From positions 62,001 through 126,000 of the forward strand of contig JADBKJ010000021.1 in assembly GCA_014896455.1 (NCBI GenBank): DNA of 64,000 nt, given 5' to 3'. The position numbers and the translations under genes are program-made. Of the stretch, positions 13,988-63,905 are shown one piece after another. A model generated the notes under the pieces. It did no database searches. It was not told the DNA's origin and saw only the letters and a program-made list of their open reading frames with translations. Source of the DNA: Thermoanaerobacter sp. GTDB lineage: Bacteria > Bacillota > Thermoanaerobacteria > Thermoanaerobacterales > Thermoanaerobacteraceae. The stretch's first letter is position 1. Every line of letters starts with the position of its first letter.

Positions 13988-14068
13988 TTAATATGTTATT
14001 CTATATAAATTTAAAAAATCCTGCTAAATTTTTATAAAAAAATAAAAAAACAGGCTTTGCGCCTGATT

Positions 14069-14330
14069 CAGACTGTAGACAAACTTTCGTAAAGGAGATA
14101 TTTTGCATAAGGAGCGACTTGTGACAAAGTGGCAACAAAACTTAGCGAGACCAAGGGTGGAGGCAGGGCCGTAGCCACGGATGGCGGAGGCGGGCACTAA
14201 GACAGGGATGTCGAATGTGCCCGGTACCCTGCCGGAACCCGAAGGTCGAGCTTAGTTTTGTCGCTTTGGAACATCGGAGCGACATGCAAAATATCTCCTT
14301 TGAATATTTTTTAACTTTGTCAACAAACTG
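14069..14330 (-). mobile_element. Terminator-associated mini-element, copy A (262 bp)
   Basis: This non-coding, GC-richer element has imperfect terminal inverted repeats. In element orientation (minus here) it begins CAGTTTGTTGACAAAGTT and ends GACAAACTTTCG-like sequence closing in CAGTCTG. The inner 17-bp core AAAGGAGATATTTTGCA is inverted at the other end, and much of the interior is also self-complementary. It is flanked by perfect 21-bp direct repeats at 14048-14068 and 14331-14351. Each is a CAGGC/GCCTG hairpin, the terminator of the M16 peptidase gene whose stop codon begins 2 bases away. The insertion has separated the gene-proximal hairpin from its T-run, which stays with the distal copy. 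No reading frame of interest is present. Confidence 0.9.
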
Positions 14331-14352
14331 AAACAGGCTTTGCGCCTGATTT

Positions 14353-15630
14353 TTATTTTTTAATAGGATTCACAACGGAAAGCACACTATTCTCTTCTCT
14401 CAGATGATTTTGAAATCTTTCTCTAACATCTTCAAAGCTTATACTATAAAGCAGATCTAAATAATCCAGTAAATTTATTTCCTTCATATAAAAGTTTATA
14501 AAACTGTAAGCTATACTATCGACCGAATTAAATGTTCTTAAAAATTTTCCTATGTATTTTTTCTTTATTCTTTCAAAATCTTCTTCCTTTAAAAATTGTA
14601 GATTATTTATTGCATTTAAAATGATATCTCTCACTTTAAAAGGGTCTTTAGATTGACCTCCTATTATAGAATAACCGTAATCTATCTCTCCACCGTAATC
14701 AAAGCTAAAAGTGCTGTCAATAAACCCTTCATTGTAAAGCCTCTCATACAAGTCAGAACTTCTGCCTAATGCCATTTCTAAACCTATTTGTATCTCTAAA
14801 TTTTTCTTTAATAATTTCTTTCCCCCAAAACCCACATCTGTATCTTTAAAACCTAGATTAAAAAGAGGAATAGATACTTGCATATCTTGTACAACTTCTT
14901 TTTTATAAACGCTTGAAGGCTCTTTAGGATATATCCTTTCTATTTCTCCCTGTTTTTTATCCTGTCTCACATTTTCTTTTATAACGTCAAGAGTTTTATC
15001 TATATCAATATCCCCTACAACAAACAATACCATATTTTCAGGATGATAAAATGTGTAATAACATTTATATAAGATTTCTTTATTTATTTGCGAAATTGAT
15101 TCAATCGTACCAGCTATGTCTTTTCTAACTGGATGTACATGATAAAGAGCCTCTAATGCGTTAAAATAAACTCTCCAATTGGGGTCATCTTGATACATCC
15201 TTATTTCTTGAGCTATTATTCCCTTTTCTTTCTCCACATTTTCGTCTGTAAAATAAGGATTTTGTACAAACTTCACTAAAAGTTTTAGATTTTCATAGAA
15301 GTTTTCAGTACTCGCAAATAAATAAGCAGTTGTAGTAAAATTTGTATAAGCGTTAGCTGAAGCCCCTAATTTTGAAAACTGCTCAAAAATGCTGCCTTCC
15401 TTCTCTTCGAACATTTTGTGCTCCAAAAAATGCGCAACCCCATCAGGTACCTCCGTTACGTCAATATCCCCTGGAGCGATAAACTTACTGTCATTAGAAC
15501 CAAAATGGGTAGCAAATATTGCAAACTGCTTTGTATAACCTCTTTTCGGCATTATATACACTTTCAGGCCATTATCCAATTCTTGTAAAAGTATTTTTTC
15601 ATCTATTCTCTCATTGTACAACTTCTGCAT
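14353..15630 (-). CDS. M16 family zinc metallopeptidase, YmfH-like (active-site subunit)
   Basis: This 425-aa protein has the inverted zinc-binding motif HFLEH (in GVAHFLEHKMFE) with the distal glutamate in KGIIAQEIRMYQDDP, so it should be catalytically competent. The C-terminal half carries the second M16 domain with the GRSSDLYERLYNEG segment. It pairs with the next gene upstream, an M16 protein lacking the motif, as in ymfF-ymfH of Bacillus; such pairs form a clam-shell oligopeptidase. I used the ATG at 15630, 7 bases after GGGAGG; an ATG at 15636 would be too close to that site. The physiological substrate is unknown. Confidence 0.88.
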   Translation of the reverse strand: MQKLYNERIDEKILLQELDNGLKVYIMPKRGYTKQFAIFATHFGSNDSKFIAPGDIDVTEVPDGVAHFLEHKMFEEKEGSIFEQFSKLGASANAYTNFTTTAYLFASTENFYENLKLLVKFVQNPYFTDENVEKEKGIIAQEIRMYQDDPNWRVYFNALEALYHVHPVRKDIAGTIESISQINKEILYKCYYTFYHPENMVLFVVGDIDIDKTLDVIKENVRQDKKQGEIERIYPKEPSSVYKKEVVQDMQVSIPLFNLGFKDTDVGFGGKKLLKKNLEIQIGLEMALGRSSDLYERLYNEGFIDSTFSFDYGGEIDYGYSIIGGQSKDPFKVRDIILNAINNLQFLKEEDFERIKKKYIGKFLRTFNSVDSIAYSFINFYMKEINLLDYLDLLYSISFEDVRERFQNHLREENSVLSVVNPIKK

Positions 15631-15632
15631 AA

Positions 15633-16898
15633 TCATTCCTCCCTTTTGCCGGTCATAAAATACACAGTATCTAATTTAACCTTTTTAGCAACTTCCACTA
15701 CGTCCTCTTTTGTCACCTTTTCTACTTTTTTAATAAATTCTTCTATATTTAAATCTGCTCCTGCAATTTTTTGTGACAAATAGTAGTCAGATTTAGAAGT
15801 AGCATTGTCCTTCATTGCATTCAAAGAGGTCTTTAAGGCTTTTATTGTGGAATCTAATTCGTAATCTGAGATATTACCTTCTTCAATTTCTTTTAACTGT
15901 TTAAGTATTATATCAAGAGCTTTGTTGTAATTTTCTATCTCTATGCCGCAACTTACCACCATTAAACCTTTAAATCTCTCAAGCCTTGAATAAGCATAAT
16001 AAGCAAGGCTTGCCTTTTCCCTCACATTCATAAAAAGTTTAGAAAAAGGTCCTCCTCCTAATATACCACTGTATACTAAAAGAGGAAAATATTCCTTACT
16101 GTTAGCAGGCACATTAGTTCTAAAGCCAAGAGTAAGCTTCCCCTGTGTTACTTCTAAATTTTCCGTAACATATTTTATTTCCCTTACTTCTTTATGTACA
16201 TTTGGAGAAGGAATATTTAATATTTGTTCTCGTTTAAAAGAAAAATATTTTGCAAAAACCTCTTCTACATATTTAGGCTCTACGTCTCCTACAACGTATA
16301 TATCTATTGGCAAAGTATTAATACAATTTTGATAATAATGGTAAAGATTGACTTCATCAATAAAGTTTAAATCCTCACTTCTGCCCAATTCAAAAATAGC
16401 AAAAGGTTCTCCTTTGCACATTTCTTCATAGCAACGGTCTACTGCATATCTGGTTTTATCGTTTATTCTTGAATCTATCAAATTTTTGTGAATCTCCTTT
16501 TCCTGAAGTACATACTCCTTATTGAAGGCATTTCCTTCTGTAAAGGGGTTAAAAATTAAATCTTTTAGAAATTTTACTCCCCTTTCTAAAATATTCTCTT
16601 GTATATACTCTTCTTGAGGTAATTCCAATCTATATTGTTGAAGGTGCCTTTCTCCTTTTTTATACACAGAAACAGCCATAGTAGTGCCGTATAAGTTTTC
16701 TAAAAACTTCACCATTTCTTTATAGGTTTTAATACTAGAAGTACCCCTTTTTAAAACAGCAGGCAGCAAAGCGTATTTTGTAGCCTCTTTTCCTAATTGA
16801 TTGTGGATATAAAGATTAATTGTCACTGTTTTAAATTTGTCTGTAGTATCTATGTACAAATTTATTCCGTTGTTTAATTGTTTCTCAATTAATTCCAT
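15633..16898 (-). CDS. M16 family peptidase-like protein, YmfF-like (non-catalytic partner)
   Basis: This is a 421-aa M16-fold protein. The region that should contain HxxEH reads LPAVLKRGTSSIKTYKEMVK, with no zinc ligands, so it is probably the non-catalytic half of a heterodimeric peptidase formed with the downstream gene. The C-terminal half keeps the family segment LGGGPFSKLFMNVREKASLAYYAYS. Its stop lies 3 bases before the partner's ATG and its last codons form the partner's GGGAGG ribosome site. A TTGACT-17-TATAAT promoter lies upstream at 16937-16965. Confidence 0.87.
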   Translation of the reverse strand: MELIEKQLNNGINLYIDTTDKFKTVTINLYIHNQLGKEATKYALLPAVLKRGTSSIKTYKEMVKFLENLYGTTMAVSVYKKGERHLQQYRLELPQEEYIQENILERGVKFLKDLIFNPFTEGNAFNKEYVLQEKEIHKNLIDSRINDKTRYAVDRCYEEMCKGEPFAIFELGRSEDLNFIDEVNLYHYYQNCINTLPIDIYVVGDVEPKYVEEVFAKYFSFKREQILNIPSPNVHKEVREIKYVTENLEVTQGKLTLGFRTNVPANSKEYFPLLVYSGILGGGPFSKLFMNVREKASLAYYAYSRLERFKGLMVVSCGIEIENYNKALDIILKQLKEIEEGNISDYELDSTIKALKTSLNAMKDNATSKSDYYLSQKIAGADLNIEEFIKKVEKVTKEDVVEVAKKVKLDTVYFMTGKREE

Positions 16899-16936
16899 GG
16901 AATCAACTCCTTCTAAAATAATCCAATTATTTTTTG

Positions 16937-16965
16937 ATTATATGATAATTGTATCACAAAGTCAA
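16937..16965 (-). promoter_or_regulatory. Sigma-A-type promoter for the M16 peptidase pair
   Basis: On the minus strand TTGACT (16960-16965) and TATAAT (16937-16942) are separated by exactly 17 bp, about 40 bp upstream of the first M16 gene. This is a near-consensus vegetative promoter. Confidence 0.75.
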
Positions 16966-16972
16966 TAATACA

Positions 16973-16999
16973 TAAACCCGGGGAAAAACCCCAGGTTTT
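16973..16999 (-). terminator. Intrinsic terminator of the YhcN/YlaJ-type lipoprotein gene
   Basis: Immediately after the lipoprotein stop codon the minus strand forms AACCTGGGG / CCCCGGGTT with a TTTTT loop, followed by a short T-containing tail. Confidence 0.75.
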
Positions 17000-17551: not shown

Positions 17552-17633
17552 AGCTATGCACCTCCTCAAAATATATTTTTGCACTTTTATTAAAAAGTAT
17601 TATGCTAAATTATGGAATTTTTACGAAAAACAT

Positions 17634-17662
17634 TTGAAAAAATTTTGTGAGTAATATATAAT
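17634..17662 (+). promoter_or_regulatory. Sigma-A-type promoter of ychF
   Basis: TTGAAA (17634-17639) and TATAAT (17657-17662) are spaced by 17 bp, 31 bp upstream of the ychF start codon. Confidence 0.75.
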
Positions 17663-17693
17663 GCATATGTAAAACTATTGGAGGGAAGATGAA

Positions 17694-20787: not shown

Positions 20788-20869
20788 TAAAGATTTTAAA
20801 TTATTTTAAGGTTATTCTTTAAAATTAATTTTTAAGAATTAAAAATAAGCCAAGCATAGCTGCTTGGCT

Positions 20870-21135
20870 CAGTTTGTGGGCACCTAGGAGTTAAAAAATA
20901 TTCGGGAGATATTTTGCATCGTCGCTCCGATGTTCCAAAGCGACAAAACTAAAGCTCGACCTTCGGGCTCCGGCAGAGGTACCGGGCACAATCCGGCCTC
21001 TTGCCTCAGGTGCCCGCCTTCGCCATCCATGGCTACGGCCTGCCTCCACCCTCAGTTAACACCAGTTTGATACCGCTTTTGTAACAAATTGCCTGGTGCA
21101 AAAATCGCCAGCTACAGAAATTTGTCTACAGTCTC
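20870..21135 (+). mobile_element. Terminator-associated mini-element, copy B (266 bp, diverged)
   Basis: This is the same element family as at 14069. The left end CAGTTTGT is kept but then diverges (GGGCACCTAGGAG instead of TGACAAAG). The inner core reads GGGAGATATTTTGCA, and the right arm is degraded (GGTGCAAAAATCGCC). The GC-rich middle is well conserved. It is flanked by 22-bp direct repeats, 20848-20869 and 21136-21157, differing at one position; each forms the hairpin AGCCAAGC...GCTTGGCT. The right copy overlaps the end of thiI, and the last element bases supply part of the thiI stop codon. The divergence suggests an older insertion than copies D and E. Confidence 0.87.
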
Positions 21136-22294
21136 AGCCAAGCGTAGCTGCTTGGCTTAAACTTCTTATCTTCTTTAAATCATCAATATATTTTTGATAC
21201 TCCATTTTTTGTTCTGCTTCTATTACTTTGTCTAACTTAGGCTTTGTAGTAGGATGCTTTGGCACAAAAATAGTGCAGCAGTCTTCATACGGTCTTATAG
21301 AGATTTCAAAAGTGCCAATCTTTTGAGCTAAATCTATAATCTCTGTCTTATCCATTCCAATGAGAGGCCTAAATATTGGCATGGACACAGAAGCATTGGT
21401 TACATATAAACTTTCAATCGTTTGACTTGCAACTTGTCCTAAACTTTCCCCAGTGATTAGAGCCATAGAACCATTCTTTTGAGCAATTTTTTCTGCTATC
21501 TTCATCATCATCCTTCTCATGATTATAGTAGTAAATCTTGGTGGACACTTTTCATAAATTTCTAATTGCAAATCAGTAAAATGCACTACATGTAATTTTA
21601 TTTTTTGGCCATACTGAGAAAGGACTTCGCACAAATCTACAACCTTGTCTTTAGCTCTTTCAGAGGTATAAGGAGGACTGTGAAAATAAACCGCTTCTAT
21701 TTCTACGCCTCTTTTCATCATCATCCAAGCAGCTACAGGGCTGTCAATCCCTCCTGACAAAAGTACAGTTGCTTTACCGTTTGTCCCAAGAGGAAGGCCT
21801 CCTATTCCCTCAATCACTCCCGCGTATACAAAAGCCATTTCTCTTATCTCTACATTTAAAAGCACATCAGGATTATGGACATCTACTTTTGAGTTTTTGA
21901 TATTTTTCAATACTGCTGCTCCTACTCTGCGGCTGACCTCCATGCTGTTATAAGGAAAAGACTTATTTGGCCTTTTAGTCTCTACTTTAAAAGTCTTTCC
22001 TTCGTGTCCTTTCATAAGTTCTACTGCAGCTTTAAATATTTCCTCCAAGTTTAAATTGGTTCTTTTAGCTTTTGTTATTCCTACAATACCAAAGACTTTT
22101 TTTAATCTTTCTATTACCTCTTCAATATCTCCATCACATTCTACATAAATTCTGCCATGAGTTTTTTCAACTTTAACTTCCTTAAAGTCAGAAAGAGCAT
22201 GTTTTATATTTTTTATCAATTTATTTTCAAAAAAAGACCTATTATCTCCTTTTAAAGCTAATTCTCCATATTTAATCAATAATATGTCTTGCAT
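21134..22294 (-). CDS. thiI: tRNA 4-thiouridine synthetase ThiI
   Basis: ThiI activates U8 of tRNA by adenylation and inserts sulfur; it also serves thiazole synthesis in some bacteria. The 386-aa protein has an N-terminal ferredoxin-like/THUMP region (about 1-165) and a PP-loop ATPase with TVLLSGGIDSPVAAWMMMKR. The rhodanese domain of the E. coli enzyme is absent, as usual in Firmicutes, where the adjacent cysteine desulfurase hands over sulfur directly. The C-terminal residues LSQAATLG are encoded by the terminator hairpin duplicated by mini-element B, and the TGA stop spans the element junction. Start: ATG with GGAGGT. Confidence 0.94.
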   Translation of the reverse strand: MQDILLIKYGELALKGDNRSFFENKLIKNIKHALSDFKEVKVEKTHGRIYVECDGDIEEVIERLKKVFGIVGITKAKRTNLNLEEIFKAAVELMKGHEGKTFKVETKRPNKSFPYNSMEVSRRVGAAVLKNIKNSKVDVHNPDVLLNVEIREMAFVYAGVIEGIGGLPLGTNGKATVLLSGGIDSPVAAWMMMKRGVEIEAVYFHSPPYTSERAKDKVVDLCEVLSQYGQKIKLHVVHFTDLQLEIYEKCPPRFTTIIMRRMMMKIAEKIAQKNGSMALITGESLGQVASQTIESLYVTNASVSMPIFRPLIGMDKTEIIDLAQKIGTFEISIRPYEDCCTIFVPKHPTTKPKLDKVIEAEQKMEYQKYIDDLKKIRSLSQAATLG

Positions 22295-24556: not shown

Positions 24557-24643
24557 AATATCTCCTTTGAATATTTTTTAACTTTTTCAACAAACTGAGA
24601 CCTCATCAAAGCGAGGTCTCAGACTGTTGACAAAGTTAAAAAA
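24557..24643. mobile_element. Mini-element remnant, locus C: two truncated ends around one hairpin
   Basis: Bases 24557-24597 are the outer 41 bp of the element in reverse orientation, ending CAACAAACTG. Then comes a 22-bp hairpin (24598-24619, AGACCTC...GAGGTCT). Then 24620-24643 begin CAGACTGTTGACAAAGTT, the outer 24 bp of a second end in the opposite orientation. The outward ends thus flank a single hairpin, the reverse of the intact copies, where two hairpins flank one element. The left fragment is cut where the pseudogene begins. Confidence 0.8.
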
Positions 24644-35058: not shown

Positions 35059-35312
35059 ATAATTTTGACTATTTTATATCCTGCAGGAATTCTTTCTACT
35101 TCGTATATCCCCTTGTAAGGAATGTTGAGCCTTTGCAAAAGGTTTTGTACTACTCGCAAAGATTCCAATCCAAACTTGAGAGAATGGCTGCAGCTTTCCG
35201 TGATACTTCTGGGAGTTGGTACAAATTCCACCGGAATATTATTTTTCTTTAACATTTTTTCTGCCATTAAACCATGCTGATAAGAGTAAAAGACAATCAA
35301 TCCATATTTCAC
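35055..35312 (-). CDS. DUF3343 family protein
   Basis: The 85-aa product starts VKYGLIVFYSYQHGLMAEKM and contains VEFVPTPRSITESCSHSLKF, the pattern of DUF3343. This is a small ferredoxin-like-fold family often encoded near sulfur or selenium trafficking genes and proposed to act as a Se/S carrier; the cysteine in ESCSHS would be the functional residue. The start is GTG at 35312 with GAGGTGG 5 bases upstream; the longer frame from 35345 has no site. Function is not established. Confidence 0.75.
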   Translation of the reverse strand: MKYGLIVFYSYQHGLMAEKMLKKNNIPVEFVPTPRSITESCSHSLKFGLESLRVVQNLLQRLNIPYKGIYEVERIPAGYKIVKII

Positions 35313-35440
35313 TAATACCACCTCAAAATCAGTATATTCCAACAAAGCAAAAGTTGATACAATGTTCCTATCTAACCATAAATTACTTGAAGGAATTTAC
35401 AGCTGTTTGTAGAATATATGATTTTGAGGAGGTAATAAAA

Positions 35441-36121
35441 ATGAAAATAAAATCAATAATAGCAGTATTAATAGCAATAACTATAATTTTTTCTTTAAAT
35501 CCTGCCAGTGCTTCAATTTTTTATTCTTATGGATATTTCACTAAAAATACTGTAGCAAATAATTCAATAAGATTTTCTAATTCAAAGAACTTAATAATTA
35601 TAAAACAACCAGTTTCTTACAATGTCACATCTAAACAAACAACATCAAACCCATCAAATTCTTCTAATACCACTACTAGCAATGATTCTACTTTGCAAAA
35701 TAAAGGAGTAACACTTCAAACAACAAATATTTCTCTTTCCCAAGAGGAAAAAACTTTAATAGAATTAACAAATCAGGAAAGAATAAGCCGTAACTTAAAT
35801 CCTCTTCAGATAGATGAAAATCTCTGTAAAGTTGCCAGACTAAAAGCAGAAGACATGAAAGAAAATAACTATTTCTCTCATACTTCTCCAAGCTACGGCT
35901 CACCTTTCGACATGATGAAAAAATTTGGAATAAATTATTACTTGGCAGGTGAAAATATAGCCTTAAATTCAAATATTATAAAAGCTCACTATTCTTTAAT
36001 GAACTCAGAAGGACACAGGGCAAACATTTTAAATCCTAATTACAATAAAATTGGAGTTGGAATAGTAAAAAATAAAGAAGGCAATGGCATAATAGTGGTA
36101 GAAATGTTTATAAAAGATTAA
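35441..36121 (+). CDS. Secreted CAP-domain protein (SCP/PR1, YkwD-like)
   Basis: The 226-aa product has a signal peptide (MKIKSIIAVLIAITIIFSL, cleavage near ASAS), a Ser/Thr/Asn-rich linker (about 60-100) and a C-terminal CAP domain: LSQEEKTLIELTNQERISRN, FSHTSPSYGSPFDMM, YLAGENIALN and MNSEGHRANILNPNYNKIGV. YkwD-like CAP proteins are widespread in spore-formers; some are found on spores. Their biochemical role is unclear. A GAGGAGG site lies 8 bases before the ATG at 35441. The stop codon overlaps the left terminator hairpin duplicated by mini-element D. Confidence 0.88.
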   Translation: MKIKSIIAVLIAITIIFSLNPASASIFYSYGYFTKNTVANNSIRFSNSKNLIIIKQPVSYNVTSKQTTSNPSNSSNTTTSNDSTLQNKGVTLQTTNISLSQEEKTLIELTNQERISRNLNPLQIDENLCKVARLKAEDMKENNYFSHTSPSYGSPFDMMKKFGINYYLAGENIALNSNIIKAHYSLMNSEGHRANILNPNYNKIGVGIVKNKEGNGIIVVEMFIKD

Positions 36122-36142
36122 ATCCGGGTAAATCCCGGATTT

Positions 36143-36490
36143 CAGTTTGTTGACAAAGTTAAAAAATATTCAAAGGAGATATTTTGCATCGTCCGCTCCG
36201 ATGTTCCAAAGCGACAAAACTAAAGCTCGACCTTCGGGCTCCGGCAGGGTACCGGGCACAATCGGCCTCCTTGCCTCAGGTGCCCGCCTTCGCCATCCAT
36301 GGCTTCGGCCCTGCCTCCACCCTCAGTCTCGCTAAGTTTTGTTACCGCTTTGTAACAAGTCGCACCGATTGCAAAATATCTCCTTTGCGAAAGTTTGTCT
36401 ACAGTCTGAGAGAGTATACGAAATACTCTCTTTTTCTCTTGTCGCACCGATTGCAAAATATCTCCTTTACGAAAGTTTGTCTACAGTCTG
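36143..36490 (+). mobile_element. Terminator-associated mini-element, copy D (266-bp element plus captured hairpin and second right end)
   Basis: Bases 36143-36408 form a complete element (CAGTTTGTTGACAAAGTT ... CAGTCTG). They are followed by a foreign 32-bp hairpin with T-run (36409-36440, AGAGAGTATACGAAATACTC...) and then a second 50-bp copy of the element right end (36441-36490). The whole composite is flanked by perfect 23-bp direct repeats at 36120-36142 and 36491-36513, each an AAATCCGGG...CCCGGATTT terminator hairpin. The repeats overlap the stop codons of the CAP gene and of the convergent M18 gene. The first 298 bp are almost identical to copy E, differing by one inserted C near position 36191. 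Short reading frames inside are artefacts. Confidence 0.9.
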
Positions 36491-36511
36491 AAATCCGGGT
36501 AAATCCCGGAT

Positions 36512-37915
36512 TTAATCTTTTTCCATAAAGACTTTATAGGCCTTATAAGCCATATATACATCTACTTTGGAAGATAACTCATAAGGCGCATGCATGCTTA
36601 AAAGTGCAACGCCACAGTCTAAAACTTCCATGCCATAATTTGCAACGTATTGGGCAACTGTACCGCCGCCTCCCATGTCAACTTTGCCCAACTCACCTGT
36701 CTGCCATACTACTCCATTTTCATTGAAGAGTTTTCTCACTTTTCCGACAAACTCAGCATTTGCATCATTTGACCCTGCTTTTCCTCTTGAACCAGTGTAT
36801 TTAGTAATGCATACACCTTTCCCTAAATAAGCAGTGTTTTGTTTTTCACTGACTTCTGGATAAGTAGGATCAAATGCAGCATTTACATCAGCAGATAACA
36901 GTTCAGAATTAGCCAAAACCTTTCTCAATTTGATATCTGTACTTCCTTCGTATTTTTCTAATATTTCTGCAATAGCATTTTCGAAAAATCTTGATTGCAA
37001 ACCAGTATTGCCCATACTTCCAATCTCTTCTTTATCAGTAAATATCGCAACAGCCGTTCTCTCTGGCACCTCAAGCTCAAGAATAGCTCTTAAAGAAGTA
37101 TAAGCACAAACCCTGTCATCTTGACCATAAGCCCCAATCATACTTCTGTCAAAACCTATATCGCGAGGTTTATAGGCAGGCACTAATTCTAACTCAGCAC
37201 TTAAAAAGTCCTCTTCCACTATGCCATATTTTTCATTTAAATATTTCAAAATATTAGGTTTCACGCTGACTTCCTCAGAAAGAGGAATGCTTCCAATTAC
37301 AGCATTTAATGCTTCTCCTGTAACCACTTCTGCTGCTTTTTTTTCCATCTGGTCTTTCCCTAAGTGAGGCAATAAATCTGTTATGTAAAGGACAGGGTCA
37401 TTTTCATCTTCTCCCACTACAATGTTTATCTTCTCACCATTTGCTTTGACAATTACTCCATGGAGAGCCAAAGGAATTGTCACCCACTGATATTTTTTAA
37501 CACCGCCATAGTAATGGGTTTTAAATAAAGCTAAGCCGCCATCTTCATACATTGGATTAGGCTTTAGGTCAATTCTCGGAGAATCAATATGGGATGCTAC
37601 CGCCTTTATCCCCTTTTGCATTGACTCTTTACCAATTACAGCTAAAACCACTGATTTCCCCTTGTTGTTGTAATACACTTTGCTGCCCGGCTTTAAATTT
37701 GTAACTTTTTCAATATTGATAAAGCCATTCTTTTCTGCTATTTCTATAATCTTCTCTGTCGTTTCTCTTTCTGTCTTACATTTTGTCATAAAGTCTTTGT
37801 AGTCTTCACCAAACTGATAAACTTTTTCTTTTTCCTCATCAGAAATTTTAGTCCATGCATCTACGTTTTTGTAACCTAAACGCTTTTCAATTTCTTTTAA
37901 ATCTTTTTCTTCCAA
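36512..37915 (-). CDS. M18 family aminopeptidase
   Basis: This cytosolic, probably dodecameric zinc aminopeptidase has 467 aa. Visible motifs include AVASHIDSPRIDLKPNP with the first metal ligands, YDCG-type alternatives absent, the catalytic IFTDKEEIGSMGNTGLQSRF and the late metal histidine in GVALLSMHAPYELSSKVD. It starts at TTG (37915) with GGGGGG 8 bases upstream. Its stop codon lies in the right-hand terminator copy at mini-element D. A dyad-overlapped promoter is seen at 37934-37973. Confidence 0.9.
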   Translation of the reverse strand: MEEKDLKEIEKRLGYKNVDAWTKISDEEKEKVYQFGEDYKDFMTKCKTERETTEKIIEIAEKNGFINIEKVTNLKPGSKVYYNNKGKSVVLAVIGKESMQKGIKAVASHIDSPRIDLKPNPMYEDGGLALFKTHYYGGVKKYQWVTIPLALHGVIVKANGEKINIVVGEDENDPVLYITDLLPHLGKDQMEKKAAEVVTGEALNAVIGSIPLSEEVSVKPNILKYLNEKYGIVEEDFLSAELELVPAYKPRDIGFDRSMIGAYGQDDRVCAYTSLRAILELEVPERTAVAIFTDKEEIGSMGNTGLQSRFFENAIAEILEKYEGSTDIKLRKVLANSELLSADVNAAFDPTYPEVSEKQNTAYLGKGVCITKYTGSRGKAGSNDANAEFVGKVRKLFNENGVVWQTGELGKVDMGGGGTVAQYVANYGMEVLDCGVALLSMHAPYELSSKVDVYMAYKAYKVFMEKD

Positions 37916-47814: not shown

Positions 47815-48053
47815 AAAAATCCTCCGTCAAATAGGACGAAGAATCCGCGGTACCACCTAAATTAGCATTTTATAAAAAATGCTCACTCATTTGGATAACG
47901 GTATGACCGGCAATGCCTACTATTAGTTCAGCACGCTGCTCCGGAGGGAACTTTCCATTATCTACCTAACGATAACACTCTCAGTCTACGGTGTTATCTC
48001 CCTGTGATTTTCGATAATGTACTTTACTCCTTCATAGCATTTTGAAATATTTT
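47815..48053 (-). ncRNA. T-box leader (tRNA-Phe responsive) of pheST
   Basis: The minus strand contains the T-box core TAGGTGGTACCGCGG (47845-47859), followed by an intrinsic terminator (47815-47843) that overlaps the antiterminator. The stem I 3' strand reads AAAG-TTC-CCTCCGGAGC. TTC at 47948-47950 stands where the specifier should be and is a Phe codon, matching the downstream genes. The thrS leader aligns at the same place with ACC. Uncharged tRNA-Phe should stabilise read-through. Confidence 0.93.
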
Positions 48054-50027: not shown

Positions 50028-50150
50028 ATGAAAAAATAAAAGCGGATATAGAAATACCCGCTTCTTTACAATAAAACAAAGATAAATACTTTTGAAGAAA
50101 CCTTTGCACCTTCGGTGAAAGGTGAGAAGCGGGCGCTTCTACTTATTCGC
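50028..50150 (-). ncRNA. infC leader (ribosomal L20-type attenuator)
   Basis: Between the promoter and infC the minus strand carries a hairpin CCTTTCACCGAAGGTGCAAAGG and, further on, an intrinsic terminator AAGCGGG...TCCGCTT with T-run (about 50033-50066). An upstream CCCGCTTC can pair with GAAGCGGG of the terminator, giving a mutually exclusive antiterminator. This layout matches the L20 leader of Firmicutes, where L20 binding favours termination. Confidence 0.82.
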
Positions 50151-54552: not shown

Positions 54553-54772
54553 AAAAAACCTCTTACCCCGTAAAGAGGCAGAGGTTATCTGCGGTTCCAC
54601 TCTTTTTTATACTCTGGTATTATATCGGAATAACCGTTCGGATTCATCATCCGCAGCTCCGGGGTGGTCTTCGATATTTAGAACATTTGAATGATCTCAG
54701 CCTATGTCATTCAATCTCTGTGATGTTCTTTAAATATCTACTTTCCCCCTCATTGCTTTAATATTTAATTTT
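54553..54772 (-). ncRNA. T-box leader (tRNA-Thr responsive) of thrS
   Basis: The minus strand carries the T-box core AGAGTGGAACCGCAG (54590-54604) and a terminator (54553-54586, CCTCT...AGAGG with TTTTTT). The stem I 3' strand reads GAAG-ACC-ACCCCGGAGC. ACC (54666-54668) is a Thr codon in the specifier position, aligned with TTC of the pheS leader. Confidence 0.93.
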
Positions 54773-56520: not shown

Positions 56521-56568
56521 TTTTTCACCTCTTTTATAAAAGATAGGGCATACTGTTGTATGCCCTCG

Positions 56569-56833
56569 CAGTTTGTTGACAAAGTTAAAAAATATTCAAA
56601 GGAGATATTTTGCATCGTCGCTCCGATGTTCCAAAGCGACAAAACTAAAGCTCGACCTTCGGGCTCCGGCAGGGTACCGGGCACAATCGGCCTCCTTGCC
56701 TCAGGTGCCCGCCTTCGCCATCCATGGCTTCGGCCCTGCCTCCACCCTCAGTCTCGCTAAGTTTTGTTACCGCTTTGTAACAAGTCGCACCGATTGCAAA
56801 ATATCTCCTTTGCGAAAGTTTGTCTACAGTCTG
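56569..56833 (+). mobile_element. Terminator-associated mini-element, copy E (265 bp) plus captured hairpin
   Basis: This complete element (CAGTTTGTTGACAAAGTT ... CTACAGTCTG) is almost identical to copy D. It is followed by the same 32-bp foreign hairpin/T-run (56834-56865) seen inside copy D, then CTATCTT. The whole is bracketed by perfect 20-bp direct repeats at 56547-56566 and 56874-56893, each GGCATACTG/TATGCC hairpin. The right copy overlaps the stop codon of the GGDEF gene. Two extra bases (CG) lie between the left repeat and the element. It contains spurious short frames only. Confidence 0.9.
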
Positions 56834-56892
56834 AGAGAGTATACGAAATACTCTCTTTTTCTCTTTCTATCTTGGCATACTGTTGTATGCCC

Positions 56893-57825
56893 TTAGCCTT
56901 TTCTTCTATCTTTTAAATAACAACTTCCATCCATTGTCTTTAATTTCTTTTTCAATTCAGCAGCTACTGCACTTATTTCCAAATCATTTTTAAAATCTCT
57001 AAATTCATTTGTGACAATAGCAATAGAAATTGATACCAGTGGAAACATCATTTTTTCGCCATTCCTACCAATTGTCTCTATGTAACCCTTTTTTCTATCT
57101 TCATCGTCATATAAATACTTTATTTCCTCATCAAAGCGAGAAATTATATACTTACACATCTCTTCAGCTTTATCAGGAGTAGTAATTATCACAAAATCAT
57201 CTCCACCTATGTGTCCCAAAAAATCTCTTTCATTTCCAATCAGATTTACAGCATCTGATAAAATTTTGGCTGTAAGTTTTATTACATTATCTCCTCTTAA
57301 AAAACCGTAGTAATCATTATAAGACTTAAAATTATCCACATCAATATACAAAATGGCATAAGGCTTGTTTTTTTTAATTCGCCTTTTTATTTCTTCTTTA
57401 ATGTCAATATTTCCTCTAAGACCAGTAAGAGGGTTGGCCATTCTGTTGTGTTCTATCCGCTGAAACAAATTATTGACTTTAAACAGAAGTTCTTTGTCAT
57501 TAAAAGGTTTCACTAAATAATCATCTGCACCCAATTCCAACCCTTTAATTTTTTCTTCAAAATTGTCCTGTGAAGTCAAAAGTATTATAGGAAGCATCAA
57601 ATTTCCTTCTTCTTCCCTCAAAATTCTTAAAAGGTCAAAGCCATTCATGCCTGGCATAACTATATCTAATATTACCATATCAGGAAGTTTATTCCTGTAT
57701 ATTTGCAAAGCCTCTTCTCCATCTTTAGCCTCTAGCACCCCATACCCAGCATTTTCTAAAATATCTTTCAAAATTTTCCTTGTAAGTTTGTTATCATCGA
57801 CAACAAGAATGTTTCTCCCCTTCAC
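56893..57825 (-). CDS. Response regulator with GGDEF (diguanylate cyclase) domain
   Basis: The 310-aa product has a receiver domain (NILVVDDNKLTRKILKDIL, phospho-Asp in DMVILDIVMPGMNGF, Lys in DYLVKPFNDKELL) and a GGDEF domain with NPLTGLRGNIDIKEEI and the active motif in LGHIGGDDFVIITT (GGDDF). It probably makes c-di-GMP after phosphorylation. I start at GTG 57825, with GGAGG 7 bases upstream; the longer frame from 57885 has no site. No kinase gene is adjacent. Confidence 0.88.
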   Translation of the reverse strand: MKGRNILVVDDNKLTRKILKDILENAGYGVLEAKDGEEALQIYRNKLPDMVILDIVMPGMNGFDLLRILREEEGNLMLPIILLTSQDNFEEKIKGLELGADDYLVKPFNDKELLFKVNNLFQRIEHNRMANPLTGLRGNIDIKEEIKRRIKKNKPYAILYIDVDNFKSYNDYYGFLRGDNVIKLTAKILSDAVNLIGNERDFLGHIGGDDFVIITTPDKAEEMCKYIISRFDEEIKYLYDDEDRKKGYIETIGRNGEKMMFPLVSISIAIVTNEFRDFKNDLEISAVAAELKKKLKTMDGSCYLKDRRKG

Positions 57826-57945
57826 AATGTTTCCTCCACAAAAAACATTTAACAACCCCATAATATTATATAAAAATTTTGGCAAAAAAACTACTACTTT
57901 AGCAAATAAAATTTAAAGTAAAAATAAAAAATTTTACATAAAATT

Positions 57946-58391: not shown

Positions 58392-58466
<75 letters not shown>

Positions 58467-58470
58467 GTAT

Positions 58471-58546
58471 TGGAGCGGACAACGAGACTCGAACTCGCGA
58501 CCCTCACCTTGGCAAGGTGATGCTCTACCAACTGAGCTATGTCCGC
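58471..58546 (-). tRNA. tRNA-Gly (GCC)
   Basis: Minus-strand cloverleaf with GCGGACA acceptor, D-arm AGCTCAGTTGGTAGAGC, anticodon loop TTGCCAA (GCC), GAGTTCGAGTC T-arm and encoded CCA. Confidence 0.96.
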
Positions 58547-58550
58547 ATAA

Positions 58551-58626
58551 TGGTGCCTCGAAGTGGAATCGAACCACTGACACAGGGATTTTCAGTCCCT
58601 TGCTCTACCTACTGAGCTATCGAGGC
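58551..58626 (-). tRNA. tRNA-Phe (GAA)
   Basis: Minus-strand cloverleaf with GCCTCGA acceptor, anticodon loop CTGAAAA (GAA), GGTTCGATTCC T-arm, discriminator A and encoded CCA. Confidence 0.96.
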
Positions 58627-58635
58627 ATAATATAA

Positions 58636-58712
58636 TGGCGACCCAAAAGGGACTTGAACCCTCGACCTCCAGCGTGACAGGCTGGCGCTCTAACCAACTG
58701 AGCTATTGGGCC
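58636..58712 (-). tRNA. tRNA-Asp (GTC)
   Basis: Minus-strand cloverleaf with GGCCCAA acceptor, anticodon loop CTGTCAC (GTC), GGGTTCAAGTCCC T-arm, discriminator G and encoded CCA. Confidence 0.96.
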
Positions 58713-58713
58713 G

Positions 58714-58789
58714 TGGTGGTCGCAATAGGACTCGAACCTATGACCCCCTGCTTGTAAGGCAGGTGCTCTCCCAGCTGAGCTATACGACC
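58714..58789 (-). tRNA. tRNA-Val (TAC)
   Basis: Minus-strand cloverleaf with GGTCGTA acceptor, anticodon loop CTTACAA (TAC), AGGTTCGAGTCCT T-arm and encoded CCA. It is the first tRNA of the Val-Asp-Phe-Gly-Cys operon. Confidence 0.96.
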
Positions 58790-60220: not shown

Positions 60221-60391
60221 TCACAACTTTTCTTTTTTTCCTACCTCCTGTTGCATTTTTATCTTTTTCTTAACTATTGAACCTATTTTCCCAGTTTCTT
60301 GGGCAGATAACTTAGACCATCCAACTTTTTTTACCTTTTCAAGAAGTCCTAATTCTTCAGCCGCTTCAAGTTTCAAAATTTCATTATCCAT
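60221..60391 (-). CDS. Alpha/beta-type small acid-soluble spore protein
   Basis: This 56-aa protein begins MDNEILKLEAAEELGLLEKV, then KKVGWSKLSAQETGKIGSIV and a lysine-rich tail. The pattern (LExAxELGL...VGWxxLxxxExGxIGG-like) is that of alpha/beta SASPs of Clostridia and Thermoanaerobacter, which coat spore DNA. The usual GG is GS here, so it may be a divergent minor SASP. GGGAGGAG lies 9 bases before the ATG, overlapping the end of the upstream gene. It is too short for most ORF lists. Confidence 0.8.
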   Translation of the reverse strand: MDNEILKLEAAEELGLLEKVKKVGWSKLSAQETGKIGSIVKKKIKMQQEVGKKEKL

Positions 60392-60394
60392 TCT

Positions 60395-61876
60395 TTAATA
60401 CTCCTCCCAATTTAAAGAACTGTAATATATCTTTTCCCCTGTGCTGGCATCTATCATAAACTCCAAAGAGTTAGGTATATACACTAATTTACCTTTTTTA
60501 TGTTCTGTTATAAAATAGTGCAGTTTAAAACCACTATCTATAAAAATATTTTGAGCAACTTGTGTATTGATAGTATTATCTATCTTTGGAAAATCAATAT
60601 AATCCCAATTAAAAATTATTTTTTTAACTATTCCTTCCTCATTTGTTTCAATGGTTATATAATTATTAGAAATTATCGTATTGTTTGTTTGTCTATAAAA
60701 AGTATAAATTTTATTATTTCGATAATTCATAGGATATGCTACCAAAAAATCACAAGACAAATAATTATAAAGATGTTCTTTCACATATGTCTTTGCCTCT
60801 TCCATATCAAGTATTCTAAAATTTTTTTCATTATAATTCCAATAACCAAAACCTAAGTGAAGAATATTTTGGTCATTAGAATCAATTGCTACATTTATAT
60901 TTAAAATTATGTCTTTTAGACTTGTAAAATTCCAATCATAGGTCACAGCTGGTTTACCCGTCAAATAAAAATTATTCACATAACCGGATTTGAGCAAAGA
61001 AATTTTATCTATTTTTAAATTTTTTGCTATATCTTGAGCAATTGTCTCTGGATTTTCTAAATTAAAACGATCGCCTTTTAACTTTGCAAAATCCAGTGTA
61101 ATCATTTCTTCTTTAATATCATTTCCCTTATAATCAATAAAAATACCACTTTTGGCATCAATCCCATAAAACAAAGGATTCAAAGAGGAAATATACACTA
61201 ACTGATACTTTTTGCCTTCTTTATAAGCCATAAGCTGAGGAACAATATATTTTTGATATAGGTTTTTTATTTCGTCTATACTTTTAATATCATTTGTCAC
61301 CTCATATTCAACTTTTTCCGAAAGATTTTCACCAAAAAATTTAATAACTTCTCCTGAATGAGAATCTATGTACACAACTATTTCTCTATTATCCACTATC
61401 AGGTGATTTATCACTTTTTTAAAAATTAACTTATAAATATATGGTTTTTCTAAACTTTCATCAATATACTCATCATCTGAAAGGCTTTTTACAAATTGAT
61501 ATTCTTCTCCTGTAATTGAAGATATCAAATTGTGGGCTAAAATTATCGACTCACTTTTTGAATATTTTGCTGATAAATTTTTATCAAAATGTGTAAAAGT
61601 ATTTTCATAGTAATCTATATACTCCAATTTATCATTGTCAGTATTGTATACAATTTTTAAAATCTTAAAGGGATTACTTCCTTCAAATTTAAAGCTATAT
61701 AACCCATTTTGCAACTTATGTTCTACTAATTTTAATCCTCTTGTAAAAGGTACTTTCATTATTATTTCTTGTAATATTTTTTCTTCTGAATAAGGATTAG
61801 CTTCTGAATAAGCACTTGATAAATTTAAAAATAATATCAAGGCAATCAATCCTGCTAAACAAAATTTTTTAACCAT
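60395..61876 (-). CDS. Secreted YcdB/YcdC repeat protein
   Basis: The 493-aa product has a signal peptide (VKKFCLAGLIALILFLNLSS, cleavage near SAYSEA) and repeated PepSY-like YcdB units: strands with EIVVYIDSHSGEVIKFFGE, SSLNPLFYGIDAKSGIFIDY and LEFMIDASTGEKIYYSS. YcdB/YcdC domains occur in exported proteins of spore-formers; the function is unknown. It overlaps the ribosome site of the following SASP gene, which suggests a shared transcript and perhaps sporulation-stage expression. The latter is inference. Confidence 0.8.
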   Translation of the reverse strand: MVKKFCLAGLIALILFLNLSSAYSEANPYSEEKILQEIIMKVPFTRGLKLVEHKLQNGLYSFKFEGSNPFKILKIVYNTDNDKLEYIDYYENTFTHFDKNLSAKYSKSESIILAHNLISSITGEEYQFVKSLSDDEYIDESLEKPYIYKLIFKKVINHLIVDNREIVVYIDSHSGEVIKFFGENLSEKVEYEVTNDIKSIDEIKNLYQKYIVPQLMAYKEGKKYQLVYISSLNPLFYGIDAKSGIFIDYKGNDIKEEMITLDFAKLKGDRFNLENPETIAQDIAKNLKIDKISLLKSGYVNNFYLTGKPAVTYDWNFTSLKDIILNINVAIDSNDQNILHLGFGYWNYNEKNFRILDMEEAKTYVKEHLYNYLSCDFLVAYPMNYRNNKIYTFYRQTNNTIISNNYITIETNEEGIVKKIIFNWDYIDFPKIDNTINTQVAQNIFIDSGFKLHYFITEHKKGKLVYIPNSLEFMIDASTGEKIYYSSLNWEEY

Positions 61877-61946
61877 ACATAGACCTCCTTGAAAATATTA
61901 CCATATATACTATTCTATGTATGGTTAAAAATTCCTGCTTATATCA

Positions 61947-61973
61947 CAAAAAAATCCGGATAACCCGGATTTT
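61947..61973 (-). terminator. Terminator of the NifU-domain gene
   Basis: AAATCCGGGTTATCCGGATTT followed by TTTTGTG on the minus strand, starting at the stop codon. Confidence 0.85.
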
Positions 61974-62194
61974 TAAACTGCTATTACTTCCATCACTTCA
62001 GGAATTTCTTCTTTGATGGCCCTTTCAATGCCTTCTTTCAGCGTCAATGTAGCAAAAGGGCATCCTCCACAAGCACCTGTCAGCTTTACCTTTACAATTC
62101 CATCCTCTGTAACGTCAATAAGTTCCACATTTCCTCCGTCTGCTTGAAGAGATGGCCTTAAAAGCTCTAATACTTCTTCTACTCTTTCTCTCAT
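61973..62194 (-). CDS. NifU C-terminal domain Fe-S scaffold protein
   Basis: The 73-aa product is a single NifU C-terminal domain: [20 protein letters not shown] and the CxxC in [20 protein letters not shown]. It can hold or deliver an Fe-S cluster between two subunits. The ATG at 62194 has AAGGAGG 7 bases upstream; the frame from 62218 starts before that site. It stands alone, not in a suf or isc operon. Confidence 0.92.
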
Positions 62195-62246
62195 AGCCAA
62201 TCCTCCTTCCTGACACAATTATTATACCACAAAAATCAATGGAAAT

Positions 62247-62711
62247 CTATTTTTTGAGTTTTCGACTTATAATTTCTGCAACTTTTTCTAAAAATCTTTT
62301 GTCTTCTTCATCAAAAGCAGCTAAATCATCGCTGTCAATATCTATTTCTCCTATTATGTCGCCATTAACCCATATTGGCACTACAATTTCCGATTTCGTC
62401 TCAAGACTACAAGCCAAATAATTATCTTCTTTTGTTACATCATCTACAATTATAGTATTTTTTTCTGCAACTGCTCTTCCACAAACCCCCTGTCCTACTT
62501 TAATTTTCACATGTTCTGTAGGTCTACCAATATAAGGTCCTATTACTAACTCTCCATCTTTCATGAAATAAAAACCCGTCCAATTATAGTAAGGAACATT
62601 GTCTGCTAATATCTTAACAACTTCACCATAAAATTCATCCATCTCATCAATTTCTCTTGCTTTTTGGTCAATCCTAACTAATAGGTCATCAAAAACTTTT
62701 CTTTTTTCCAT
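62247..62711 (-). CDS. GAF-domain protein, free-methionine-R-sulfoxide-reductase-like
   Basis: This 154-aa single GAF protein has YYNWTGFYFMKDGELVIGPY, VGQGVCGRAVAEKNTIIVDD, NYLACSLETKSEIVVPIWV and IGEIDIDSDDLAAFDEEDKR. Two cysteines (GVCG, LACS) match the resolving and catalytic cysteines of free Met-R-sulfoxide reductase; the third, upstream of GVCG, is replaced (PTEHVKIKV). It may still reduce free Met-R-O using two cysteines, or be a ligand-binding relative. It is probably monocistronic, 36 bases above the NifU-type gene. Confidence 0.82.
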   Translation of the reverse strand: MEKRKVFDDLLVRIDQKAREIDEMDEFYGEVVKILADNVPYYNWTGFYFMKDGELVIGPYIGRPTEHVKIKVGQGVCGRAVAEKNTIIVDDVTKEDNYLACSLETKSEIVVPIWVNGDIIGEIDIDSDDLAAFDEEDKRFLEKVAEIISRKLKK

Positions 62712-62855
62712 CTTTTCAGCTCCTCTGTAAAAAATTTATCAATATAATTTTACCATTAAAATGTTATAAAATAAAGTAGTTCCCTTTTAGATTTATCAAT
62801 AGTTAAAGATTAATTCAATTTGCCTTAAATAATTAAACTGCCTCAAAAGCAGTTT

Positions 62856-63114
62856 CAGTTTGTTGACAAAGTTAAAAAATATTCAAATGAGATATTTTGC
62901 ATCGTCACTCCGATGTTCCAAAGCGACAAAACTAAGCTCGACCTTCGGGTTCCGGCAGGTACCCCGTCAGGCGACCTCCTGTCTTTAGTGCCGTCTCCGC
63001 CATCCTTGGCTACGGCCCTGCCTCCACCCTCGGCTTGCTAAGTTTTGTTGCCGCTTTGTCACAAGTCGCACCGATTGCAAAATATCTCATTTACGAAAGT
63101 TTGTCTACAGTCTG
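62856..63114 (+). mobile_element. Terminator-associated mini-element, copy F (259 bp) with paired change in the inverted core
   Basis: The left end is CAGTTTGTTGACAAAGTT and the right end CTACAGTCTG. The inner core reads AAATGAGATATTTTGCA on the left and TGCAAAATATCTCATTT on the right, while copies A, D and E have GG/CC in place of TG/CA. Both arms changed together, so perfect pairing is kept. It is flanked by a hairpin AAACTGC...GCAGTTT at 62835-62855 and its copy at 63115-63133 (19 bp aligned, one mismatch), which overlaps the lgt stop codon and was the lgt terminator. The GC-rich centre differs from D and E at many positions. Confidence 0.88.
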
Positions 63115-63131
63115 ACTGCCTCAAAGGCAGT

Positions 63132-63905
63132 TTAATTGTAAAATTGTTTATTGGGGTCATTTAAAACTCTTCTAATCATCCAGTATGCCAATATCAAAAT
63201 AAAAGGTGTTGCTAACTGAGTTAAAGTAAAAAATCCTATTCCCCATTTTTCATTTAAATATACAGGCCATATTAAAGGATTGTCCCTTACGGTTTCTTCA
63301 ATAAAACCTCTCATTAATTGATAATAAAATATAAAAGACCAAAATTGATATCCATCAGGCATATGCTTTTTTTGTATATAAAAATATCTTATGAGAAGTA
63401 TTACCCCCATAGCAACTCCTACTAATTGCGCTGGCCATCTCCCAAAAGCAAACTCAGTCGGCCTTCCTAGCACTTCTTGGTTAAATATATTTCCTATTCT
63501 GACTAATATATTACCAATTGAAAGTCCTAAAACTGCGAAATCCTCTAGAGGATTTATCCTCACACCTTTTTTACGACAATAATAAAGCCCTGCTAAAAAA
63601 CCACCTAAAACTGCACCATGCCATGAAAGTCCACCTTCATAAATCTTTAACACTTGAATAGGATTTTTAATAAACCACTCAGGATAATTTGCCAATACAA
63701 ACATCAACCGTGCACCTATAACACCAGAAATTACTACAATCATTAATAGATTTAATAAAAAGTCTTCATCGTAATTTAATTTCATTGCCTCTTTGTACAA
63801 ATAATATCCACCAATAGCAATAGAAATAGCCATAAAAATTCCATACCAATGAACAGCAATTGGACCAATTTTAAAAGCATAAGGGCTAATCGTCGGAATG
63901 TACAT
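63132..63905 (-). CDS. lgt: Prolipoprotein diacylglyceryl transferase
   Basis: Lgt moves diacylglycerol from phosphatidylglycerol to the lipobox cysteine of prolipoproteins. The 257-aa membrane protein has VHWYGIFMAISIAIGGYYLY, GGLSWHGAVLGGFLAG, and the signature RIGNIFNQEVLGRPTEFAF in the active site, with about seven helices. The ATG at 63905 has GGAGGT 7 bases upstream; the next ATG, at 63908, is also possible. Its terminator is the hairpin duplicated by copy F. Confidence 0.95.
   Translation of the reverse strand: MYIPTISPYAFKIGPIAVHWYGIFMAISIAIGGYYLYKEAMKLNYDEDFLLNLLMIVVISGVIGARLMFVLANYPEWFIKNPIQVLKIYEGGLSWHGAVLGGFLAGLYYCRKKGVRINPLEDFAVLGLSIGNILVRIGNIFNQEVLGRPTEFAFGRWPAQLVGVAMGVILLIRYFYIQKKHMPDGYQFWSFIFYYQLMRGFIEETVRDNPLIWPVYLNEKWGIGFFTLTQLATPFILILAYWMIRRVLNDPNKQFYN

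Follow-up and report, generated by a model that had tools for sequence, protein, structure and literature searches.

Hairpin targeting is known in the IS1182 family of insertion sequences (IS). Its staphylococcal members IS1272, TnSha1 and TnSha2 insert at inverted repeats or hairpins irrespective of their sequence, among them several terminators, and in the accessible parts of their descriptions they replace or partly delete the hairpin without duplicating it, and no RNA cargo is mentioned (PMC5678879, PMC4923244). In the same parts, duplication of a whole hairpin is drawn as alternative pathway b (Fig. 13) beside the replacement made by IS1272 (PMC5678879). TwoAYGGAY RNA (RF01731), which has the Rfam type cis-reg and is an RNA of unknown function, is among the RNAs in the accessible part of a published list (PMC2864571). 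Here, we describe small mobile elements that bring these two subjects together. Five copies (A to E) and a remnant lie in a 64,000-nt stretch of Thermoanaerobacter sp. (JADBKJ010000021.1, positions 62,001–126,000; the window, in whose coordinates all positions are given). Their ends are nearly identical to those of IS1182-family elements, and they are flanked by direct repeats that are hairpins. Considered jointly, the comparisons suggest, with a probability that we put at about 70%, that they are miniature inverted-repeat transposable elements (MITEs) mobilised in trans by an IS1182-family transposase, which duplicate the whole target hairpin and carry a TwoAYGGAY RNA, a candidate sponge for the regulator CsrA.

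The likeness to IS1272, TnSha1 and TnSha2 lies in the IS1182-family transposase and in the hairpin targets, so the targeting has a precedent; the differences are that the whole hairpin is doubled here and that an RNA is carried. The first-pass annotation of the window had named other hairpin-seeking systems, such as some IS110 members and group IIC introns, but none with this size, these ends and whole-hairpin duplication; the IS1182 family was absent from its comparison. Whole-hairpin duplication as a rule was not found in the open-access literature, and searches there turned up no transposon or MITE with a TwoAYGGAY RNA, no Thermoanaerobacter MITEs of the IS1182 family and no CsrA-type RNA as cargo. 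Both the preference of IS1182-family elements for hairpins and the TwoAYGGAY RNA have been described before; the same searches gave no precedent for their combination, for hairpins regularly duplicated whole, or for so many copies of the RNA between transposon ends.

The core shares with TwoAYGGAY RNAs two hairpins with GGA loops, a long closing stem and a full-length match to the model; it differs in being the cargo of high-copy mobile elements and in scoring, for the window copies, below the gathering cut-off. Paired GGA-loop hairpins also recall the sponge RNAs of the CsrB/RsmX type as described in the accessible part of PMC4333381, a likeness in loop motif; here, by contrast, many dispersed copies sit on transposon ends. 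IStrons, which combine a group I intron with an IS, likewise place a structured RNA on a DNA transposon, but the present elements hold no known ribozyme, are non-autonomous and are sited at gene ends. In short interspersed elements (SINEs), a cellular non-coding RNA has been multiplied as a non-autonomous element; there the route is retroposition, whereas here it would be DNA transposition.

Insertion at hairpins and duplication of the target

The first-pass annotation had taken the flanking hairpin to be the target, duplicated whole on insertion, and had proposed orthologous empty sites as the test. The sites of copies B, C, D and E were compared across eight genomes of the genus, with aligned flanks that are mainly 92–99% identical between genomes. 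Presence of the element differs between genomes at all four loci, and where it is absent the site holds one hairpin, not two. The single hairpin was read in seven genomes for B, in six for C, in G001, G006 and G008 for D, and in G005 and G008 for E; at E, the flanks also overlap by 15–19 bp in BLAST coordinates in G002, G007 and G009, which gives one hairpin there too. The empty site of C in G008 matches letter for letter the repeat that flanks copy C in the window. Site E is occupied in G001, and site D in G002 and G005, where the element is opposite in orientation to that of the window and lacks its 40-bp tail.

Comparison of loci L372 and L373 with copy D shows the same hairpin with opposite orientations of the element; if this is not an assembly error, the hairpin has been hit in both orientations. 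A short tandem repeat, TTTCTTTAACC, in about five units, adjoins the empty site-D hairpin in G008 (L375, G008:C1:2213030-2213160).

To measure duplication, four single-contig genomes other than the source draft supplied ten copies each, 40 in all; about ten further rows from these genomes, some of them partial, were left out. A duplication was called when a direct repeat outside both ends scored at least 10, the highest score among 800 controls being 7. By this measure, 32 of the 40 copies are flanked by a duplication of 17–33 bp (median 24), and 31 of these 32 repeats fold to −4 kcal/mol or below, compared with 8.1% of control positions, mostly as one hairpin spanning the whole repeat. The targets in this sample have a common structure and no common sequence. 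Larger hairpins go with longer duplications, which suggests that the cut sites depend on structure instead of lying at a constant stagger. Stem-loop replacement of the IS1272 type was not seen, the target hairpin being kept and duplicated. Hairpin duplications in 31 of 40 copies and single hairpins at the empty sites bear out the proposal that the hairpin is the target.

The elements are numerous. The end pattern CAGNNTGTNGACAAANTT occurs 153 times (72 + 81) in the whole draft genome of the source, whereas the reversed control occurs 0 times; a BLAST search with copy D yields at least 40 near-full copies in that genome at 93–100% identity (40 of 124 candidates scored). A search of related genomes, which had been recommended, returned elements in all nine other genomes of the genus, and so in all ten searched with the source included; those of G003 are strongly diverged.

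The draft assembly looks faulty at these repeats, as if gaps had been filled with one sequence. Among loci L001–L024, 18 of the 26 comparable own-genome copies share 27–48 bp of the flank of L001, and the L001 core is identical in 13 of the 26 copies compared, with copy D entering this comparison as L008. In copies C and D the interior and the tail may be gap-fill artefacts, as may the orientation of D; the 40-bp tail of D is suspected to be one.

A likely IS1182-family partner

The first-pass annotation had seen a non-autonomous mobile element and had advised looking for longer elements with the same ends and a transposase. A search for the IS1182 transposase family (NF033551) in 13 genomes recovered such elements in the genus; they are 1560–1568 bp long and have the ends CAGACTGTTGACAAA and CAGTTTGTTGACAAAG. 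Most copies of the small element have the left end CAGACTGTAGACAAA and the same right end as the IS, CAGTTTGTTGACAAAG. The right ends agree over 16 bases and the left ends over 15 with one change, TTGAC in the IS for TAGAC in the small element, and some copies of the latter also have TTGAC. The small element has no transposase gene, and its terminal inverted repeats match those of an IS1182-family element, as would be expected of a MITE of that family.

Both kinds of element have the same type of target and of duplication. Among the IS loci of G006 and G008, both ends are present at 13 of the 14 loci over the cut-off (L367 lacks such ends), and 11 of these 13 lie between hairpin duplications of 19–32 bp, exact or with one mismatch, compared with 17–33 bp in 31 of the 40 MITE copies. 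Long direct repeats are also given in the ISfinder entry of IS1182. An IS1182-family insertion sequence is, judging by ends and footprints, the likely mover of the small elements. No RF01731 match was found in five loci of the autonomous IS.

A partner of the IS1202 type, which makes long duplications (NF033594), was considered and rejected, the 30 loci found being without these ends. At one IS locus (L088, 1463–1482), a run of GGA motifs (AGAGGAGAGGAGAA) lies in the leader of the IS1182 transposase gene, over the ribosome-binding site; it is speculation only that CsrA might bind this run and that the RNA cargo could then release the transposase.

A TwoAYGGAY-type RNA in the core

Outside the genus, BLAST matches the stretch of the element from about position 31–66 to 221 at 73–82% identity in six of nine genomes of a second genus, which we take to be Thermoanaerobacterium; of the others, G018 has only a weak 50-base match and two have none. 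Both flanks are homologous in the six genomes, so the RNA occupies one locus there, one neighbour of which is presumably a glycerate kinase gene. The RNA copies are 90–97% identical across the six genomes, and they are more alike than their flanks in pairs with L040 and L041, but not in pairs with L045 nor in L039–L043. The RNA is inverted relative to its neighbours in L040, L041, L043 and L045 compared with L039 and L042, in the same intergenic place, and L039 and L043, whose flanks are the most alike, have the RNA in different orientations; perhaps the RNA flips in place, by its closing stem.

The copy at this locus matches the Rfam family RF01731 (TwoAYGGAY) with 42.7 bits against a gathering score of 43 (E 4.7e-4 over 4227 families), and copy A of the window matches it end to end (model positions 1–168). 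The copies listed from Thermoanaerobacter score about 35–40 bits, and elements with similar ends in other families pass the gathering score (L330, 60.4; L168, 51.8; L175, 45.7). Since scores fell below the curated threshold, the relation was checked in the reverse direction with a covariance model, R1, built only from Thermoanaerobacter, the second genus and G003 and run on 31 sources. R1 finds 18 of 21 RF01731 loci of other genera over their full length (L175 and L234 being the same place), 16 of them at E ≤ 2.2e-5 and two more weakly (L150, 1.1e-3; L226, 0.07), and matches none of six IS or control loci. Homology in both directions indicates that the middle of the element is a TwoAYGGAY-type structured RNA (RF01731), in line with the structured RNA surmised at first; the inverted 17-bp core described with it is present and can be reread as the closing stem of this RNA.

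The raiA/ModT RNA (RF03072) was considered as the core and rejected, as none of the ten Thermoanaerobacter genomes searched contains a match; clan CL00106 is shown for TwoAYGGAY and not for raiA. A close relative of the RNA (L046 in G037, 91 bits with R1) adjoins an apparent tRNA gene and has a long closing stem of its own.

The structure is conserved as that of an RNA would be. In an alignment of 26 sequences, base pairing holds in 98.1% of cells; of 50 pairs, 15 show changes on both sides, a count reached by 0 of 500 shuffles, with the structure taken from the same alignment. The closing stem has four different sequences (the main type, that of L281, L289 and L290, that of the second genus and that of G003), all of which pair. 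With the strands folded independently, RNAalifold gives −65.3 kcal/mol on the RNA strand and −41.8 on the other, and in each of the 26 sequences it is the RNA strand that folds better. On that strand, 19 columns have G-U and 6 have A-C, compared with 5 and 10 on the other; counted by cells, the other strand has 29 G-U and 13 A-C.

GGA loops, CsrA and a possible promoter

Of 45 copies, comprising the 40 sampled and the five of the window, 42 have two GGA-loop hairpins midway along the RNA, compared with about 15% of shuffled cores, and the stem of the second hairpin varies, from GGC/GCC to GAC/GUC, while its GGA is unchanged. It was from this feature that binding of CsrA was proposed for TwoAYGGAY RNAs, with validation said to be needed, in the accessible part of PMC4333381. 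A survey of CsrA genes covered 60 genomes, comprising 36 of the 40 RNA-positive ones (four were dropped) and 24 RNA-negative ones taken at roughly every tenth handle from G070 to G320, negative here meaning at the depth of the RF01731 survey of the phylum. CsrA was found in 35 of the 36 RNA-positive genomes, compared with 14 of the 24 RNA-negative ones (Fisher p 2.1e-4, uncorrected for kinship), and the source genome has one CsrA match. From motif and co-occurrence, our best guess is that the RNA would act as a CsrA-binding (sponge) RNA.

The left end of the IS reads TTGACA-N17-TATGAT; on the RNA strand of the MITE, the corresponding position in the left end is taken by TAGACA-N17-TATTTT, as counted by eye. 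Given this promoter-like motif, the left end may double as a promoter of the RNA, a suggestion that we keep tentative because the motif fails in L044 and L294.

Two RNA copies of G003 (L044 and L057) are without the first of the GGA hairpins; L044 is moreover reversed relative to the usual orientation, its RNA starting from the CAGTTTG end.

Occurrence beyond Thermoanaerobacter

A search of 398 genomes from across the phylum, with few candidates scored per genome (shown as 6), found RF01731 in 40 genomes, in 33 of them over the gathering score, and 29 of the 40 have at least two copies. IS1182-type ends flank the RNA on both sides, by pattern, in four of 30 genomes outside the genus (G067, G153, G193 and G286), and G144 (L225, L226) was added by eye; no such end was seen on the copies looked at in the 25 others. 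Plain hairpin duplications accompany L168, L190, L192, L225 and L235, which belong to families f35, f75 and f55. The ends of L174 (G193, family f15) are IS1182-like by pattern with no clear hairpin duplication, and this case is therefore counted as doubtful. On such sequence matches, similar ends together with a putative TwoAYGGAY RNA clearly occur in three further bacterial families, with Desulforamulus and Caldanaerobacter identified by name. As to a partner, an IS1182-family fragment of G286 (L344) has the same variant end as the MITEs; the IS1182 relatives in G153 and G193 have no matching ends in the loci examined, and no such relatives were found in G067 and G144.

A scan of the collection for an element end joined to the start of the RNA returned Thermoanaerobacter, Caldanaerobacter subterraneus, Desulforamulus putei, a Clostridia bacterium and one Streptomyces contig. 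Of the loci found, L330 matches RF01731 with 60.4 bits, and L294 has no RF01731 match and scores 134 bits with R1. The end-RNA hybrid on the Streptomyces contig (L310), which matches neither RF01731 nor R1, was judged a chance occurrence.

Terminal repeats and duplications were also sought around the TwoAYGGAY loci of 30 genomes, 29 of which were scored (L177 was too short); most loci in these 29 have the closing stem only and no clear duplication. In G020, which has 29 TwoAYGGAY matches, and in G022, the RNA lies in elements with other long inverted repeats (GATTTTAGTGTACAAAG...; L118, L119, L136, L137, L179–L188), perhaps a second type of transposon with the same cargo. L120 (G039) holds two copies with a spacing of about 290 bp, and each of them is enclosed by repeats resembling GAGGGTCGCA(A)TTATAC. 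From this spread, it is conceivable, though we would give it less than even odds, that TwoAYGGAY over much of the phylum forms a mobile class of CsrA sponges, captured more than once, by IS1182-type ends and apparently by at least one other kind, and reaching dozens of loci per genome.

Proposed mechanism and alternatives

The mechanism that we favour would be as follows. An IS1182-family DDE transposase that shares the ends of the MITEs would act in trans and recognise a folded hairpin, usually an intrinsic terminator; strand transfer would link the element to one DNA strand at one foot of the hairpin and to the other strand at the opposite foot, and repair would copy the hairpin whole, which corresponds to pathway b of the published model (PMC5678879). 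Both neighbouring genes would keep a terminator, and as the duplicate restores one on each side, insertions would be tolerated. The cargo would be a TwoAYGGAY RNA, closed by the 17-bp stem and holding the two GGA-loop hairpins, which IS ends captured and multiplied, with titration of CsrA as its putative role; it would possibly be transcribed from a TAGACA-N17-TATTTT promoter in the left end.

Several results weigh against parts of this proposal. Convincing duplications are lacking in eight of the 40 sampled copies (in L265 the ends are probably mis-set), and one of the 32 repeats, that of L269, is not a hairpin. Copies without hairpin flanks, which the first-pass annotation had named as grounds for refutation, thus exist as a minority, and of the strict terminator targeting that it claimed, strong targeting of hairpins and terminators stands while 'strict' goes too far. 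Two of the 13 two-ended IS loci (L099 and L366) have no convincing duplication; among decayed IS copies, the hairpins that flank L113 (G004) differ at 8 of 28 positions, and L098, in the source genome, has no clean repeat. Among the matches listed from the source draft there are only decayed IS1182 pieces, the best of them a broken one. On the RNA side, the scores of the Thermoanaerobacter copies lie below the Rfam threshold; R1 missed L149, L160 and L225, and also the truncated copy L315; further pair types, at 33 against 35.2 in shuffles, are not in excess, and the structure used in the covariation count was not independent of the alignment. The GGA loops are lost from the aligned copies of G003, CsrA is common in the phylum and its co-occurrence with the RNA ignores phylogeny, and the promoter match is not kept in all lineages.

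The elements might instead be ordinary MITEs, the core being foldback DNA, perhaps of use in transposition or termination, and its likeness to TwoAYGGAY a matter of ancestry with no present RNA function. Long inverted repeats are typical of MITEs, and full IS1182 copies do without the core, which is therefore not needed for IS transposition; yet the conserved structure, the compensatory changes, the strand preference, GGA loops that stay constant while stems covary, a single locus in the second genus at 90–97% identity (with the RNA more alike than its flanks only in some pairs) and covariance-model matches in distant families make this account unlikely. More improbable is a host-owned terminator or insulator block in which RNA and duplicated hairpins together strengthen termination between genes. 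The siting at gene ends, the duplicated terminators and the long closing stem would suit it, but benign siting explains the same facts, and a stem alone would be enough, yet the inner two-hairpin architecture is conserved.

That RNA and IS1182-type ends recur jointly in several bacterial families could also mean that transposition uses the RNA as a cofactor or guide that chooses the hairpin targets, in the manner of omega RNA or bridge RNA. This is very improbable, as the autonomous IS targets the same type of hairpin without the RNA, the targets are alike in structure and not in sequence, and TwoAYGGAY RNAs also occur with other ends and alone. Kinship with IS110/IS1111, group IIC introns or the systems of repetitive extragenic palindromes and their associated tyrosine transposases (REP/RAYT) would account for hairpin targets, but hardly for terminal inverted repeats, a duplication and an IS1182 partner with nearly the same ends; moreover, to our knowledge none of these duplicates a whole hairpin, and we consider this origin scarcely credible.

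If MITEs moved by an IS1182-family transposase do carry this RNA, an RNA family of unknown function, listed since 2010, gains a genomic home and a mode of spread, and the published idea of a CsrA sponge becomes directly testable in organisms with dozens of copies. The insertions would also make up a large collection of natural cases of whole-hairpin duplication, an IS1182-family outcome drawn as an alternative in the mechanistic description, and the terminator that each neighbouring gene keeps as its own offers a reason why they can do no harm. Should the tentative class of mobile sponges exist, it would be a bacterial counterpart of SINEs, in which an RNA that titrates a regulator is a selfish or domesticated cargo and copy number tunes the CsrA network of the host.

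Copies and other features of the window

The five copies and the remnant reported by the first-pass annotation were found where it had placed them (Table 1). The window repeats are all hairpins that overlap, touch or lie within 1–2 bases of a listed open reading frame (ORF) end, as had been observed for their siting at the ends of neighbouring genes. Two descriptions had to be amended: the CAG...CTG ends do not extend to copy B, which ends in CTC, and the repeats of 19–23 bp bracket the complete copies with an extra 82 bp in C and 40 bp in D before the repeat resumes. In copy A, R1 scores 192.8 bits at 14109–14281, a model built partly from close relatives of this copy. The extra segment of copy C is probably an assembly artefact or a recombinant.

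Table 1. Element copies in the window and their parts; strand is that of the RNA
Feature	Position	Strand	Remarks
Copy A, left hairpin	14048–14068	.	21 bp; identical to 14331–14351
Copy A, complete element	14069–14330	+	Ends CAGACTGTAGACAAAC / TTTGTCAACAAACTG; single-strand fold z = −11.1
Copy A, TwoAYGGAY-type RNA core (predicted)	14118–14275	+	Rfam RF01731 full length, 37.4 bits (gathering 43), E 2.5e-4
Copy A, right hairpin	14331–14351	.	Followed by T-run; 1 base from end of ORF 14353–15636 (−)
Copy B, left hairpin	20848–20869	.	22 bp; single hairpin at empty site in 7 genomes
Copy B, element	20870–21135	−	Right end mutated to CTC; R1 match 20923–21097, 122.5 bits
Copy B, right hairpin	21136–21157	.	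One mismatch to left copy
Remnant locus	24557–24643	.	Two element ends facing hairpin AGACCTCATCAAAGCGAGGTCT; sequence reading
Copy C, left hairpin	36120–36142	.	23 bp; identical to 36491–36513; overlaps end of ORF 35216–36121 (+); empty in 6 genomes
Copy C, element	36143–36408	−	R1 match 36194–36368, 199.7 bits
Copy C, extra 82 bp	36409–36490	.	Foreign hairpin AGAGAGTATACGAAATACTCTC and second, partial right end; first 32 bp common to L001
Copy C, right hairpin	36491–36513	.	Overlaps end of ORF 36512–37915 (−)
Copy D, left hairpin	56547–56566	.	20 bp, exact repeat; single hairpin at empty site in G001, G006, G008
Copy D, element	56569–56833	−	R1 match 56619–56793, 199.7 bits
Copy D, 40-bp tail	56834–56873	.	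Identical to L001 flank; absent at same site in G002, G005
Copy D, right hairpin	56874–56893	.	At end of ORF 56893–57885 (−)
Copy E, left hairpin	62837–62855	.	19 bp; one mismatch to 63115–63133; single hairpin at empty site in G005, G008
Copy E, element	62856–63114	−	R1 match 62906–63074, 135.8 bits
Copy E, right hairpin	63115–63133	.	Overlaps end of ORF 63132–63923 (−)

Elsewhere in the window, two T-box leaders, an L20 leader and a cluster of five tRNA genes (47829–48044, 54571–54762, 50028–50150 and 58395–58789) are ordinary features.

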